Part shown: in pieces, positions 22,040 through 61,097 of the stretch
Layout: every line of letters begins with the position of its first letter
Position numbering within the stretch: position 1 is the stretch's first letter
DNA from: Pyrinomonadaceae bacterium MAG19_C2-C3
GTDB taxonomy: Bacteria; Acidobacteriota; Blastocatellia; Pyrinomonadales; Pyrinomonadaceae
Direction: 5' to 3'
Length of the DNA: 64,000 bases
NCBI GenBank assembly: GCA_024330265.1
Contig: JANDLT010000013.1
Span: forward strand, 33,937 to 97,936
Translations under genes and position numbers: made by a program
The notes under the pieces: generated by a model
Databases searched by the model: none
Told to the model about the DNA's origin: nothing
What the model saw: the letters and a program-made list of their open reading frames with translations, nothing else

Positions 22040-22160
22040 AAGGAAAGTAGAAAGTAGAAAGTAGAAAGTTCAGGACAGATTTTCGTACTTTCACCTTTCA
22101 CCTTTCACCTTTCACCTTTCACCTTTCACCTTTCACCTTTCACCTTTCTACTTTCTACTT
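22040..22160. repeat. Heptad tandem repeat CTTTCAC with flanking AAAGTAG/CTACTTT arms
   Basis: Eight perfect CTTTCAC units (22088-22143) are followed by variant CTTTCTA units. Upstream, GAAAGTA-type heptads (22043-22069) are complementary to the variant units, so the RNA could fold into a hairpin. It lies between the SRPBCC and alcohol dehydrogenase genes and ends 20 bp before the latter. Confidence 0.85.
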
Positions 22161-27069: not shown

Positions 27070-27121
27070 AACCGTCCGCGTTGATTTGCTTTTAACTTGA
27101 GTCCAAATTAACGCGGTTCAT

Positions 27122-27193
27122 TCCGCAGTAGCTCAATGGCAGAGCACCCGGCTGTTAACCGGGGGGTTGTAAGTTCGAGTCTTACCTGCGGAG
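27122..27193 (+). tRNA. tRNA-Asn (anticodon GTT), likely phage integration site
   Basis: Acceptor TCCGCAG pairs with CTGCGGA. The anticodon stem CCCGG/CCGGG holds loop CTGTTAA (anticodon GTT). The T arm is GTAAG-TTCGAGT-CTTAC, with discriminator G. A tyrosine integrase gene begins 135 bp downstream and reads toward the tRNA, the classic arrangement for integration into a tRNA 3' end. The att core cannot be fixed because the other prophage end is outside the window. Confidence 0.95.
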
Positions 27194-27201
27194 TTCTAAG
27201 T

Positions 27202-27242
27202 AAAAAGCCCTAACCCAATGTTTATATGGGTCAGGGCTTTTT
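27202..27242 (+). terminator. Rho-independent terminator after tRNA-Asn
   Basis: AAAAAGCCCTAACCCA (27202-27217) pairs with TGGGTCAGGGCTTTTT (27227-27242) with one mismatch. It ends tRNA transcription and would also stop integrase transcription from the other side. Confidence 0.85.
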
Positions 27243-27274
27243 CTTTAAGTAAATCGAAAATTTTATTCGTAGCA

Positions 27275-27312
27275 GGATTGCACCAAGTTGCACCGGATTG
27301 CACGATTGGCAC
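27275..27312. repeat. 10-bp-phased TTGCAC repeats beside the integrase
   Basis: TTGCAC occurs at 27278, 27288 and 27298, exactly 10 bp apart, followed by TTGGCAC at 27306. Two of the units are within the larger repeat GGATTGCAC. The position between tRNA-Asn and the integrase 3' end fits arm-type integrase or excisionase binding sites of an attachment site, which is inference. Confidence 0.45.
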
Positions 27313-27327
27313 TAATGGAGTCACAAA

Positions 27328-28500
27328 TTAGTCACTTAAATCCATAGCGCGGTTTATTAAAGATGCTGAAGCCTGCGCCGCTAATAGCCGGCTTGAGTCT
27401 GTCGCGTGGACATAGCGGGATGTTTCAGTTATCGAAGCGTGTCCCGCAAAATCCCGTACAGTCGCGATATCTACGCCTGAATGTAATAAAAATGATAAGC
27501 AGGTGTGCCGAAGGTCATGTGGCGACCATCCGCCTTCAACTTTGCGCCCGTAAGGAATGCCGCATTCGGTTGAAATTGTTTCAAGCGTTTTACGGATATT
27601 ATGATCCCTTATCGCAAAAGCGTGAGTGGCAGAACCTAACCCTTCGGCCTTTCGCTTCATCAATAATTCAACGACTGCGGGTACAAGAATCGTGCGCCAC
27701 TTTTTAGTTTTGTAAGCGTAGAGATCTATCGTACCGGCTTTAATGTGAATGCGATTCCACATGATTCCAGATGTTTGTTGCTTTCTAACAACGGTCGATA
27801 CGATTTCATCAAAGCGCCCCCCCGCGCCTAAAGCTATTAAAAAGAAGTCGAGTACATCACGGTTAGCGGGATTGGCAGCAAGCGCAGTCGTTAAAAGCTT
27901 AATTTCTTCTGGCGTTAAAATACGCATGCGCCCGGCACTCACATCTTTGCCTAGCGGTCGTTTCGGCGAACGATAGCCGGCAAGCGCATCCACGTTTGTA
28001 TCCCGCGCATGATTGATTGCAGCGATAATCGAATTTATACGCCGCGCGATTGACGATTTAGATACGCTGCGTTTCGTTTCGCTAAGCACGTATGCGGTAA
28101 GGTCATCCCGCGTTATCGTGGTTAGCAAACGGTCGCGCCCGGCTTGATCTGCCCAATCACGAATCGGATTCAACTGCGCTTTGTTTCGGTGTAGATAGTC
28201 GGCACCGTAATCGGATTCCCATTGCGCTTCCTTCTGGCGAATATACGCATCCGTAGCTTCTCCAACCGTCGGTGATTTCAAAGGCTTAGATACTTCAATC
28301 CCATGCTTACGCGCCCGCGTGTCAAGCGTTAAACGCGCTACCGCCGCGTCCGCTTCCGCTTTCGTCGCAAAGCCGCTTGCCGCCTTGCGTTTTAATACAC
28401 CGTCACTATCCGCAACCCTTATGCGGTAACACCAGCACTTCCCGAACCGTGCGGTTTCTTCTTGCCAAACGCCATAACGAGTGATTTGCTTTTTAGCCAT
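27328..28500 (-). CDS. int: Tyrosine-recombinase phage integrase
   Basis: A 390-residue protein. An N-terminal arm-binding part (about 1-75) is followed by a core-binding SAM-like helix bundle (about 78-180). The catalytic domain carries Arg229 (GAGGRFDEI), Lys266/267 in the beta hairpin (KTKKWR), His328 and Arg331 (SPHDLRHTCL), His354 (GHASITETSRYV) and nucleophile Tyr363. All catalytic residues are present. It reads toward tRNA-Asn. A small dyad (TCTAGC-N6-GCTAGA, 28510-28527) lies just upstream of the start and may be an operator. Confidence 0.95.
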   Translation of the reverse strand: MAKKQITRYGVWQEETARFGKCWCYRIRVADSDGVLKRKAASGFATKAEADAAVARLTLDTRARKHGIEVSKPLKSPTVGEATDAYIRQKEAQWESDYGADYLHRNKAQLNPIRDWADQAGRDRLLTTITRDDLTAYVLSETKRSVSKSSIARRINSIIAAINHARDTNVDALAGYRSPKRPLGKDVSAGRMRILTPEEIKLLTTALAANPANRDVLDFFLIALGAGGRFDEIVSTVVRKQQTSGIMWNRIHIKAGTIDLYAYKTKKWRTILVPAVVELLMKRKAEGLGSATHAFAIRDHNIRKTLETISTECGIPYGRKVEGGWSPHDLRHTCLSFLLHSGVDIATVRDFAGHASITETSRYVHATDSSRLLAAQASASLINRAMDLSD

Positions 28501-57040: not shown

Positions 57041-59296
57041 TTAGAATCCAGGATACGCAGGGTCAAGTTCTATTATCGGGGTCGGGATTGGTTCCGACGT
57101 GTAAGGTTCACAACCCGCGAAATAATCACTAAGCGCATCGCCTTCTGACTCCGGCGCATGTGCCGGAGCAGCTACAGGTACTGGTACTGGTGCTGGCGGT
57201 AACACTACCGCTACAGGCTTAGGTTCAACGGCGGTTGCGTTTTTAGCAACCGCCCGTCGCCCGCGATACTTGTCATCCGGCAAGCCGGTTTCCCATCCCC
57301 ACTCCTTCGATAACGAATCATTTTCCGAAACCGGCGCGAAGCGCATCGACTTGTAATCAAAACTGAGATACACGTCCACGAATTTTGCACCGCCACGCGC
57401 TTTGCAAATCGAAAGGGAAGCGTCCGAGTCCACTAAATTTTGTAGCTCCGGTATGCCTGGAGTCTTCGCGAGTTTTGCAGCGGCATCATCTTTAACCGGT
57501 TGCGGGATGCGCCATAACTGCAAAACGTTTTGCACCCATGCCGTGACTTCCGTCGATCCTTTGATCGAATCAAGCGTGGGTTTTTTCATCGTATTTGCAA
57601 ATTCCCCTTTGAGATTATTGTGTGCAACCAAAATAATATGCACACCAAAATGCTCGGCGAAGTCGTGGGCGAGCCGGGCGATTTGAATTTGTTCCGATAT
57701 TTGCTCGAATAATGATCCCTTGATTCCGCAAAGCGACATGATATTATCAACCACAAAAAACCGAACATCGTGCCGTGCTACCGCTATCTCGAGGACTTTG
57801 AAAAAATCCGTAACCGAAGTGCGCCGCTCCGCAAACGCGAAAAAATTATCGCGATACCAGTTGCGTATCGTAGGTACGATATCCAAACGTGCGCGATAGA
57901 TAAGTTTTCCAGAATCGGCATCCGCTTCCTCGCTAAGGTATGCAGCGCCCGCCATTATGTTTTCAAAGCTATCCTGCAATTCAACGTAAGTTTCTTCAAA
58001 ACTTGCGTAGAGTACCCGCAGTCCTTTTTTCATCGCTGACACGCTCAGGTTCTGCGCCGTTTTGCTTTTACCACCGCCGGTAAATCCGGCGAGGAGCGTT
58101 ACATGCCCGGGCATCAAACTTCCAAGCTCCCTATCAAGCTCCGCCCATGAGGATGCGACCGCCGATTTTTTAACTTCATCGGAAATTACCGGTCGCTGGT
58201 AATCCGCCATTCGCACAATTCCGATGTCCGGGAAGCTTGCCGACTCCAGCGCAAGCTTAACCGCAGCGACGCCTTTGGCATCGGCTAAATCAGTAATATC
58301 GTTGAATGCGGTATCGAAGTTTGCGATTTTCACTTTGCCGGGAATTCGCTTGATCAAGACATCGACCATCGCGCGTCCGCCATCGTCGTTGTCGCCGATA
58401 ACAACTACGGAGTCGAACGCTTTCAGGGTTTCCCACTGCGTATCAATCCAATCGTGCGCGCATGCGCCGGTCGGTACGCTCAGGCAGTTGTACCCGATGG
58501 CTTCGTAGCCAATCATTGCCTTAATTTCGCCCTCGAAAATGAAAATTTCATCTTTTGAAAAATCGATTAAGTGTGTGCCGATTAGTAGTGGCTTGCCCAC
58601 CTGCTCACCGCTCGCGTTTTTACGATCTTTCCAGTTTTTGAGGATTGGCTTGCCGGTTGTAATGTCGATCTCGCCCTTTTTCACGTCCTTCGCAACGCGA
58701 TATTTGGTCATCGCCCGCCGCAGTTTGCCGTCGATTTCTTCCAGCGCGGGTACAGCGATGTTCCCGCTGCCGTCGCTGCAGATTTTGTAAGCATCCTGCG
58801 TAGCGGTCGAAACACCGCGCTTGATTAAATAATCAGTTGCGGCTTGCGACCGGGGGTGTAATTTTTCAGTCGGCAGAATATATTTTTTATCTTCTGTTCG
58901 AAGATTTTCAGATTCGACGATTCGAGCGACCGCCGACGATTCTTTCCGTTGCCAATTAAAATCCGTTTCCATTTTTGTTTCCTTCTTTTGCGCCGACGTT
59001 CGCGTATGCGCGGTTTTTTCCATAAACTCGCGTGGATCTAGCCCCGCGAGTTCAAACAGTTGCCAGTGGTTGCCTGTGGCGGCGCATTTACCGCGATAGC
59101 ATTTATACGCACCGTAGTATTTATCGCCGCGCGAGTTATTAACGAAAAACGTGCCTTCATCGTGGTTACTACCACCACCACAGGCAGGGCATCGCGCCAA
59201 AGTTATTTTTCTACCAGCCTGCTGGCGGGTTTTTTTCCACCCGGCATGGCGAACAATTTCTTCGACAGACATCGTGAAAGTGATGGGTTCGTTCAT
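57041..59296 (-). CDS. Primase-helicase (T7 gp4 / DnaB-like)
   Basis: A 751-residue protein. The N-terminal zinc-binding module has CPACGGG (Cys36, Cys39) and CYRGKC (Cys66, Cys71). The TOPRIM domain has EGEIKA (255-260) and VVIGDNDDGG (298-307). A RecA/DnaB-like helicase follows with Walker A GFTGGGKSKT (404-413), LYASFEETYVELQDSF and FFVVDNIMSL as Walker B, and VAHNNLKGEF. It primes and unwinds at the phage fork. It overlaps the O-like gene by 4 nt. Confidence 0.9.
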   Translation of the reverse strand: MNEPITFTMSVEEIVRHAGWKKTRQQAGRKITLARCPACGGGSNHDEGTFFVNNSRGDKYYGAYKCYRGKCAATGNHWQLFELAGLDPREFMEKTAHTRTSAQKKETKMETDFNWQRKESSAVARIVESENLRTEDKKYILPTEKLHPRSQAATDYLIKRGVSTATQDAYKICSDGSGNIAVPALEEIDGKLRRAMTKYRVAKDVKKGEIDITTGKPILKNWKDRKNASGEQVGKPLLIGTHLIDFSKDEIFIFEGEIKAMIGYEAIGYNCLSVPTGACAHDWIDTQWETLKAFDSVVVIGDNDDGGRAMVDVLIKRIPGKVKIANFDTAFNDITDLADAKGVAAVKLALESASFPDIGIVRMADYQRPVISDEVKKSAVASSWAELDRELGSLMPGHVTLLAGFTGGGKSKTAQNLSVSAMKKGLRVLYASFEETYVELQDSFENIMAGAAYLSEEADADSGKLIYRARLDIVPTIRNWYRDNFFAFAERRTSVTDFFKVLEIAVARHDVRFFVVDNIMSLCGIKGSLFEQISEQIQIARLAHDFAEHFGVHIILVAHNNLKGEFANTMKKPTLDSIKGSTEVTAWVQNVLQLWRIPQPVKDDAAAKLAKTPGIPELQNLVDSDASLSICKARGGAKFVDVYLSFDYKSMRFAPVSENDSLSKEWGWETGLPDDKYRGRRAVAKNATAVEPKPVAVVLPPAPVPVPVAAPAHAPESEGDALSDYFAGCEPYTSEPIPTPIIELDPAYPGF

Positions 59297-60306
59297 CGTG
59301 CACCTCCCTGCGGTTGCACATAAAAAACGTTACCGCCGACCTCAACGCGCGTTAAGCCGTTACCGGTTGTAGTGCCCGTTGCGGTTGGCGCAGCTACCTG
59401 CCGGCTTTCAAAATCACGTTCGGTAACCAATTCCGAAAACTGGCGTACCGCAGAATCAACTCCTGCCGGATTCCATCGCTTTTGACCGGTTTGTAGATTC
59501 GCGTTATGGAGTAGCGCGATTTCCCGATAATCTTTTAGTGCCTGTTCCCACGTTTCCAAATCTTCCGGTTTATCACCGACCGCTGCGATTATCATTTCCA
59601 TTTCCGATGGTTCGCCGTCCTTACCGGTTTTTTTCGGGAACAAGCGATGAATCGATTGGTAGGAAAGTACCGCCGGATGTTTGGAAGGATTCGTTAATCC
59701 TTCGGCGGTGTTTTGTACCGGTAAAGCGGAAGGAAGTGGCGTGGCTTTAGCCGCGTTTCCTTCTTCCTTTATTTCTTTTTCTTTACCTTTCTTTTGTGTA
59801 CCCGGAATCACTACCAGTACCGTCCCGGAATCACTACTGGTTACTGGTAGTGATTCACTACTGGTAGTGTTTTCGTACTGGTAGCGATTCCGGGCTGGTT
59901 CATCTGTTTCACTAGCGGTTTTGTTGGTTGTTTTTGCGGCAAGGTTTAGGCGGTACATGTAGTCCTGCCTGCCTTTTTTCCGGCGTAGAATCGTGCCGCG
60001 TTTCATGCCCGCAACAATACCTTCATACACGCTTGTACGCGCCATTCCGGTTAGGTCGGCTAAACGGCTAAGCGATAATTGATCTTCTAGTTTTCGCCCG
60101 CCGTTTTTATCGCACCAGCCGAAGGTTTGTCGAATGATGATTAAGGTAACTTTCAACTCCGACATCGAATTGATTTGCGGTAGTAACCGGTCGTAAAACG
60201 AATTCGGTGTTTGGGTAAAATTGGGAACTTCCGCCGGCGTACTACCGGTAATGTTGGTTTTAGTGCTGGACATTCCAGCACTATTTTGATATTTTGTAGT
60301 TGACAT
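59293..60306 (-). CDS. Replication initiator, lambda O-like
   Basis: A 337-residue protein. The N-terminal part (NFTQTPNSFYDRLLPQINSM, VTLIIIRQTFGWCDKNGGRK, SLSRLADLTGMARTSVYEGI) is the winged-helix origin-binding domain of phage replication proteins. A low-complexity middle (about 130-195) is encoded by a row of iterons and a purine tract. The C-terminal part has a helical helicase-loading look. It is followed directly by the primase-helicase, as initiator and helicase genes often are. Confidence 0.8.
   Translation of the reverse strand: MSTTKYQNSAGMSSTKTNITGSTPAEVPNFTQTPNSFYDRLLPQINSMSELKVTLIIIRQTFGWCDKNGGRKLEDQLSLSRLADLTGMARTSVYEGIVAGMKRGTILRRKKGRQDYMYRLNLAAKTTNKTASETDEPARNRYQYENTTSSESLPVTSSDSGTVLVVIPGTQKKGKEKEIKEEGNAAKATPLPSALPVQNTAEGLTNPSKHPAVLSYQSIHRLFPKKTGKDGEPSEMEMIIAAVGDKPEDLETWEQALKDYREIALLHNANLQTGQKRWNPAGVDSAVRQFSELVTERDFESRQVAAPTATGTTTGNGLTRVEVGGNVFYVQPQGGAR
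59759..59890. other. Candidate phage replication origin inside the O-like gene
   Basis: Three direct TACTGGTAGYG-type units start at 59842, 59859 and 59876 (exact 17-bp period), with an inverted exact copy at 59805-59819. Next to them, 59759-59796 is almost pure C/T on the plus strand and AT-rich. Iterons plus an AT-rich strand-biased tract inside the initiator gene is the lambda origin layout. Confidence 0.65.
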
Positions 60307-60365
60307 TTAATTCCTTTCAACGCGCCGCCAGTGCTACTAACACTGGCGGCGCTTTTCTTTTATGG

Positions 60366-60842: not shown

Positions 60843-61097
60843 CTAGAAAAGCCATGCTCCGGTAACCGGTGTGCATGGCTTTTCTAAAGTTTTAGCGCAT
60901 GCTTCGTCTTCAAATGGCGGAGGAACGATCTCCGCCCGAAGTCGAAAACATGCGCCAAATTTATAATTGCGTATGTTTCGTATTAAATTTTTACCCTGCT
61001 TGTTTTCGTAACCTATGCGGTTACTCCGTACAACACCGTTCGATGTATGGTTGGCGACTTTAAGCCTGCCTGTGTGCTGCGCGGTAACGCCAGCCAT
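60843..61097 (-). CDS. Doubtful 84-residue frame inside a possible short RNA unit
   Basis: The ATG at 61097 is only 7 nt from a strong -10 box, so translation would be leaderless. The stop codon lies at the far edge of a terminator hairpin (60845-60885), so the expected transcript would hardly include it. The protein is basic (GYENKQGKNLIRNIRNYKF) with no recognised domain. Either a leaderless small protein or a non-coding transcript of about 250 nt. Confidence 0.35.
   Translation of the reverse strand: MAGVTAQHTGRLKVANHTSNGVVRSNRIGYENKQGKNLIRNIRNYKFGACFRLRAEIVPPPFEDEACAKTLEKPCTPVTGAWLF
60845..60885 (-). terminator. Rho-independent terminator
   Basis: AGAAAAGCCATGC (60845-60857) pairs with GCATGGCTTTTCT (60873-60885). 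On the minus strand the 3' arm ends in CTTTTCT. Confidence 0.75.

Follow-up and report, generated by a model that had tools for sequence, protein, structure and literature searches.

A predicted lambda-type replication origin inside the O-like initiator gene of a putative prophage from a host far from model bacteria

A predicted origin and how it may open

The window (the whole stretch of 64,000 nucleotides that was analysed) contains a segment that is very probably the replication origin of a predicted prophage, with a probability of roughly 0.8 in our estimate. At this origin, five iterons (59801-59894) would be the binding sites of the O-like protein encoded by the same gene, and the AT-rich tract (59759-59798) would be the region that it opens. 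A layout like that of the lambda origin had been proposed in a preliminary description of this DNA, and it is borne out here, as the parts lie in the order of those in lambda and the script used here also detects the iterons annotated in lambda and phi80. The segment is a well-supported addition to the predicted lambda-type origins, from a host distant from the model bacteria.

In the mechanism that we propose, the winged-helix domain of the initiator would bind the iterons, and this binding together with negative supercoiling would melt the adjacent AT-rich tract. Opening would start at the word CACAAAAGAAA, which the initiator probably recognises on a single exposed strand, and the primase-helicase from the next gene would then be loaded at the opened tract. 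Published passages on lambda describe a comparable process, in which O occupies the iterons and the adjoining AT-rich region of 40 bp opens when the DNA is supercoiled; unwinding requires at least two iterons plus the AT-rich region, and O binds the single-stranded DNA of that region (PMC7466680, PMC5043065). Plasmid Rep proteins are likewise described as binding one strand of the AT-rich region in a sequence-specific manner (in passages of PMC4081077). By analogy, the word is likely a strand-opening or strand-capture site. A broader proposal is tentative, and we hold it at slightly below even odds: CACAAAAGAAA may be a widespread, frame-independent strand-opening code, held across distant phages and helicase systems while the iterons and the specificity of the initiator change, with either the initiator or the incoming helicase reading the exposed strand. 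The word is possibly a general rule of lambda-type origins. As it is also found in lambda's own tract, where it can be broken without changing the protein, it offers a cheap handle on how a lambda-type origin opens.

The prophage and its host

The element is predicted from its gene content to be a prophage, with an integrase gene by a tRNA-Asn gene, an endolysin-like gene, and matches to genes for the capsid, protease, portal, terminase and tail. The integrase beside tRNA-Asn and the structural-gene matches agree with the earlier assignment of this region to a prophage.

27121-27194, tRNA-Asn gene, adjoining the integrase gene
27328-28500, minus strand, phage integrase gene, beside tRNA-Asn

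On its left side, the prophage is likely attached at the junction of tRNA-Asn and integrase (27121-28500). At the right edge of the window (64000) the contig stops, so the right end of the prophage is missing from the contig. Outside the prophage, period-7 tandem arrays were detected at 22043-22155 (GAAAGTA, 3.9 copies; CTTTCAC, 8.7 copies). The host lies far from E. coli, and its 16S fragment is 73% identical to that of E. coli over 982 alignment columns. Matches to the initiator protein were obtained from three of the 119 order-level genomes, and matches to the O-like profile from seven of the 396 genomes of the host phylum (the host's own genome is counted in both).

The initiator gene and its neighbours

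The predicted origin lies within the initiator gene, which slightly overlaps the gene of a primase-helicase.

59293-60306, minus strand, O-like replication initiator gene, 337 aa (PHROG 678; Pfam PF04492 sub-threshold; AlphaFold2 model)
59947-60219, minus strand, predicted winged-helix DNA-binding domain, residues 30-120 (Pfam match 30-97; helices and strands between 35 and 120, pLDDT mostly >70)
59689-59931, minus strand, predicted disordered linker, residues 126-206, which carries the origin DNA (pLDDT <50)
57041-59296, minus strand, primase-helicase gene, with a 4-bp overlap with the initiator gene (PHROG 239 'DNA primase/helicase', E 1e-58; DnaB_C and Toprim_2 matches)

The initiator protein matches PHROG 678 'replication initiation O-like' (E 2.3e-14), and its match to Pfam PF04492 (Phage_rep_O) scores 21 bits against a curated cut-off of 28.7, short of membership in that family. 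The AlphaFold2 model (20-row alignment; mean pLDDT 60.8, pTM 0.36) has a winged helix at residues 35-120 and a C-terminal part that is helical with low confidence. The iterons fall in the predicted disordered linker between these two structured parts. This position and the PHROG matches fit the setting given earlier for the repeats, the middle of an O-like gene followed by a primase-helicase. Searches with the initiator returned no solved structure by sequence at E<=0.1 and nothing by fold at E<=0.001, and a RepA_N domain was not among its Pfam matches at E<=0.1.

Two further inverted repeats lie upstream of the initiator gene. One (60319-60355; 18-nt arms, 89% complementary, 1 nt apart) occupies the gap just upstream of the start codon, and the other is a perfect 14-bp inverted repeat with a 15-nt loop (60844-60886) at the 3' end of a short minus-strand ORF (60843-61097).

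The iteron array

Five iterons were identified within the linker.

59876-59890, minus strand, iteron R1, 1 mismatch to GAATCACTACCAGTA
59859-59873, minus strand, iteron R2, 2 mismatches to GAATCACTACCAGTA, with an internal dyad
59842-59856, minus strand, iteron R3, exact match to GAATCACTACCAGTA
59828-59842, plus strand, iteron R4, inverted and degenerate, 3 mismatches to GAATCACTACCAGTA
59805-59819, plus strand, iteron R5, inverted, exact 15-mer
59801-59894, whole iteron array, a nested palindrome with outer arms of 20 nt, 95% complementary

The preliminary description had reported three direct repeats and one inverted exact 15-mer. In the window sequence, the direct copies of TACTGGTAGYG start at 59842, 59859 and 59876 in exact 17-bp steps, Tandem Repeats Finder independently returned the same array (59842-59890, period 17, score 63), and the inverted 15-mer was found at 59805-59819. 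All four of these units thus stand, and a fifth, the degenerate inverted copy R4, had been overlooked. The repeats far exceed what the encoded protein would produce: the initiator gene gives 47 repeat-pair hits, while 100 synonymous-codon shuffles, in which codons are permuted among positions of the same amino acid so that the protein is unchanged, average 1.7 hits and never exceed 7. Furthermore, each of the three direct cores is read in a different frame (2, 1 and 0, giving RYQY, TTSS and LPV), which rules out a protein-level repeat as the source of the iterons and indicates that the constraint acts on DNA. On the coding (minus) strand, the order of parts is the winged helix, R1-R3 in direct orientation, R4, R5, CACAAAAGAAA, the AT-rich purine tract, the C-terminal part and the primase-helicase gene.

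The outer arms of the array (59801-59820 and 59875-59894) are 95% complementary, and the 98-nt block at 59799-59896 folds as a strong nested palindrome of -52.3 kcal/mol (shuffles -24, sd 3.24; z -8.7, 200 shuffles). Such a fold would also be expected if a stem in the initiator mRNA or a DNA cruciform controlled expression or processing, with the direct repeats as a by-product. We consider this very improbable, because such palindromes are not a general feature (of the 31 relatives passing the repeat test described below, 14 show one inverted-match hit at most) and because a hairpin leaves the adjacent word and the 17-bp direct spacing unexplained. An intrinsic terminator at the hairpin was rejected, as no T-run follows the hairpin on the coding strand (by eye).

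Repeats in the linkers of related genes

O-like genes were collected from IMG/VR contigs and from genomes on the basis of homology, without regard to repeats. In the first set, 31 of the 38 non-duplicate genes of sufficient length for the test exceeded their synonymous-codon shuffles at p<=0.01, and 27 of the 38 passed when only out-of-frame and inverted matches were counted. Among 103 other ORFs of 600-1300 nt, chosen mechanically from the same loci as controls, three passed, one of which is the O gene L008. The second set gave 24 passes among 29 genes (12 of 16 named phages and 12 of 13 further contigs), and it includes similar pairs that were not de-duplicated (L217 and L218, Highwayman and APEC). 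Twelve relatives failed the test (L005, L011, L021, L032, L039, L043, L053, L201, Morganella phage IME1369_01, Bacillus 031MP003, Paenibacillus Fitz and Pseudomonas PSA04). For phi80, the repeats are all in frame, and this phage consequently fails the out-of-frame measure.

In distant relatives, the repeats remain in the linker, and both the iteron sequence and the encoded residues differ between lineages. Repeats in the linker of the initiator are thus the usual plan among the sampled O-like genes, so that origins can be located in many uncultured phages. The DNA of two close homologues of the initiator (79% and 59% identical proteins) was not found in genome contigs, in the order, class and phylum genomes or in the viral scan.

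The AT-rich tract

The region in which the strands would separate lies next to the array.

59759-59798, minus strand, AT-rich and purine-rich tract (pyrimidine-rich on the plus strand), the gene's least stable part and likely the strand-opening region

The stretch 59759-59800 is 88% pyrimidine and 71% AT; this composition and its low stability bear out an AT-rich pyrimidine tract beside the repeats, as noted before. It holds the only 38-bp windows with at least 33 pyrimidines (or purines) between 27 and 64 kb, and it contains the least stable 40 bp of the gene, within the top 0.5% of the 27-64 kb stretch. Among the 31 relatives passing the repeat test, the best purine-AT window was close to the repeat block in only 16, so the tract is less constant in position than the repeats. 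The third-position GC skew of minus-strand genes is -0.03 to the left of the site and -0.15 to the right, where only about 4 kb is available; its direction fits a bidirectional origin, as a weak signal with little sequence to the right of the site.

Repeated and partly inverted sites of a winged-helix protein also look like an operator, and the helicase gene lies directly downstream of the initiator gene. The O-like protein or another phage regulator could in this case control transcription of the helicase gene from the repeats, with replication starting elsewhere. This reading appears quite improbable to us: the repeats adjoin the least stable 40 bp of the gene, the plan recurs in O-like linkers with different downstream genes, and the equivalent sites in lambda and phi80, with which the repeat blocks detected by the same script coincide, are annotated as initiator sites.

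Comparison with known origins

Origins inside initiator genes are already known, as described for lambda, phi80, SPP1 (in passages of PMC6316719) and RepA_N plasmids (in passages of PMC5703833). The window shows the features of the lambda type, namely an O-like winged-helix initiator (PHROG, AlphaFold2), iterons between its two domains and an adjoining strand-biased AT-rich tract. The lambda origin in gene O, like those in phi80 gene 15 and P22 gene 18, resembles the window in its N-terminal DNA-binding domain, its iterons in mid-gene, the AT-rich tract directly after them and the helicase function in the next gene. However, the iteron sequence differs, lambda has four copies, and the window has 17-bp steps and two inverted copies; phi80 differs from the window in having no copy of the word. 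Moreover, the gene after O in lambda, which we take to encode a P-type loader, is replaced in the window by that of a primase-helicase, so the window is not a strict lambda O-P module.

For SPP1, oriL is described as lying in gene 38, with direct repeats and an AT-rich unwinding region inside the initiator gene (PMC6316719). SPP1 differs from the window in that it has two origins and that its helicase loader is a separate protein. In Bacillus phage 031MP003, the 'replisome organizer' gave p 0.25 in the repeat test and carries the word only in a one-mismatch form.

The best fold matches of the window model, which are weak, include 4pql, 4pt7 and 5kbj (E 0.0024-0.025), presumably structures of pSK41-type Rep. 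In the RepA_N plasmid pSK41, as passages of PMC5703833 describe it, the N-terminal domain is a winged helix, four Rep boxes lie centrally in the rep gene, and the origin encodes the linker. RepA_N origins differ from the window in their repeats and in the phage setting of the latter, and the window protein has no RepA_N sequence match. The RK2 and F plasmids, with strand-specific binding of Rep to single-stranded AT-rich repeats, illustrate how an AT-rich word beside iterons can act (passages of PMC4081077); they differ from the window in a Rep with two winged helices and in their words (RK2 consensus TAAACnTTnTTTT).

A word shared at the iteron edge

Between the last iteron and the AT-rich tract, the coding strand carries a word that recurs in many O-like genes.

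59788-59798, minus strand, word CACAAAAGAAA, on the coding strand, read as T-Q-K-K, directly after the last iteron

In k-mer counts over 40 O-like genes, CACAAAAGAAA was present in 21 (20 shuffles, mean 1.2, maximum 3). The form CACAAAAGA[AC]A, which covers lambda and P22 too, occurs in 35 of 66 non-redundant O-like genes, which were not picked by the word but include the 40-gene discovery set; in 500 rounds of shuffling, the number of genes with the word averaged 3.0 and never exceeded 8. Among the genes added after discovery, the word was present in 3 of 16 named phages and 10 of 13 contigs. Both lambda and P22 carry it as CACAAAAGACA, one base different from that of the window, at the iteron edge. 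The loci around the O genes, 764,416 strand-bases in all, contain no copy of CACAAAAGA[AC]A, and neither does the opposite strand of these genes. The word is not universal among O-like genes, being absent from 31 of the 66, including phi80, 13 of the 16 named phages and L014, the sole other O-like gene from the host's own family. Of the five remaining O-like genes from other genomes of the host phylum, L015 has the word, L017 and L018 lack it, L019 has ACAAAAGA and not the full word, and L016 is too short. A report of a frame-independent word across O-like genes was not found among the titles and abstract openings of the papers listed in literature searches; PMC4081077 cites a source on repeats in the lambda AT-rich region.

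The first occurrences in the 35 genes are distributed over frame 2 (T-K-E/D, 25 genes), frame 1 (mostly T-Q-K-K, 7 genes) and frame 0 (H-K-R, 3 genes); the frame-1 case in L043 sits outside the linker, which has a second copy in frame 2. Since 25 of the 35 holders share one frame and peptide, and A-rich words are common in O-like genes, the word could reflect a peptide (T-K-E, T-Q-K-K) and A-rich codon use instead of a signal in DNA. We regard this as highly improbable, because the shuffles given above preserve both the protein and codon usage and reach at most 8 genes against 35 observed, and because frames 0 and 1 each exceed their own shuffles (3 vs 0.34 and 7 vs 0.3).

In most genes, the word also lies close to the repeats. 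The distance from the last upstream repeat to the word has a median of 1 nt and is within 10 nt in 44 of 50 measurable genes, a sample that includes 19 motif-selected genes; without these 19, 28 of 35 first occurrences are no more than 10 nt away, 3 lie at a greater distance, and for the other 4 no upstream repeat could be detected. In a tree of 58 winged-helix domains, in which many deeper forks are unresolved, the branches with good support cannot be reconciled with fewer than three changes for frame 0, and the same holds for frame 1. Well-supported sisters in different frames are L037 and L040 (0 and 1) and phiES15 and P22 (0 and 2), which indicates that the word stayed while the reading frame moved. 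A DNA-only scan of viral contigs for two word copies 15 bp apart matched at least 120 stretches. Among the 80 loci listed, the pattern lies within an O-like frame in 78, as judged by a profile that was built on the N-terminal domains of ten O-like proteins; for the remaining two, the available sequence starts immediately ahead of the word. By local peptide, 52 of the scan loci are distinct, many of them lambda-like, and all but L128 (disturbed frame) are in one frame. The scan thus shows specificity, not independence.

Several named phages match lambda O (L054) in one half only, either the first part (19-157, 1-155, 13-156, 19-152) or the last (156-299, 177-297), a pattern of domain swapping at the origin. 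The breaks fall just after the word, at about residues 145-149, and CACAAAAGAAA might accordingly be a recombination joint that swaps the iteron-binding and C-terminal halves of O, and not an opening signal. We consider this unlikely. A swap needs local identity only and not one word across very diverged genes in three frames, and the start of the word coincides with the iteron edge regardless of the iteron sequence.

The genes downstream of the word or of its lambda/P22 variant encode a P-type protein in lambda and phiES15, a helicase in P22, a DnaC-type protein in a Morganella phage and the primase-helicase in the window. As the word precedes different helicase partners, it is more likely to be read by the initiator or in the opening step than by any one loader. 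An internal translation start after the word was rejected, as there is no ATG, GTG or TTG within 25 nt in the window or lambda (by eye).

In the 31 genes without the exact word, a weight matrix found a degenerate form in only 4 at p<=0.05, and the best de novo words were too weak to claim (CACACA, 2.9 vs shuffle maxima of 2.3-2.7; TTTAGAC, 3.0 vs up to 2.9). Several named phages show ACACACAA-like starts at the position of the word (by eye). In addition, a second word, TTCAAATAAT, recurs in 13 of 40 O-like genes (L007, L010, L024, L028 and others; shuffle mean 1.2), where it shortly precedes the iterons. By eye it is tied to SNN-encoding genes, and it may be a protein-level feature.
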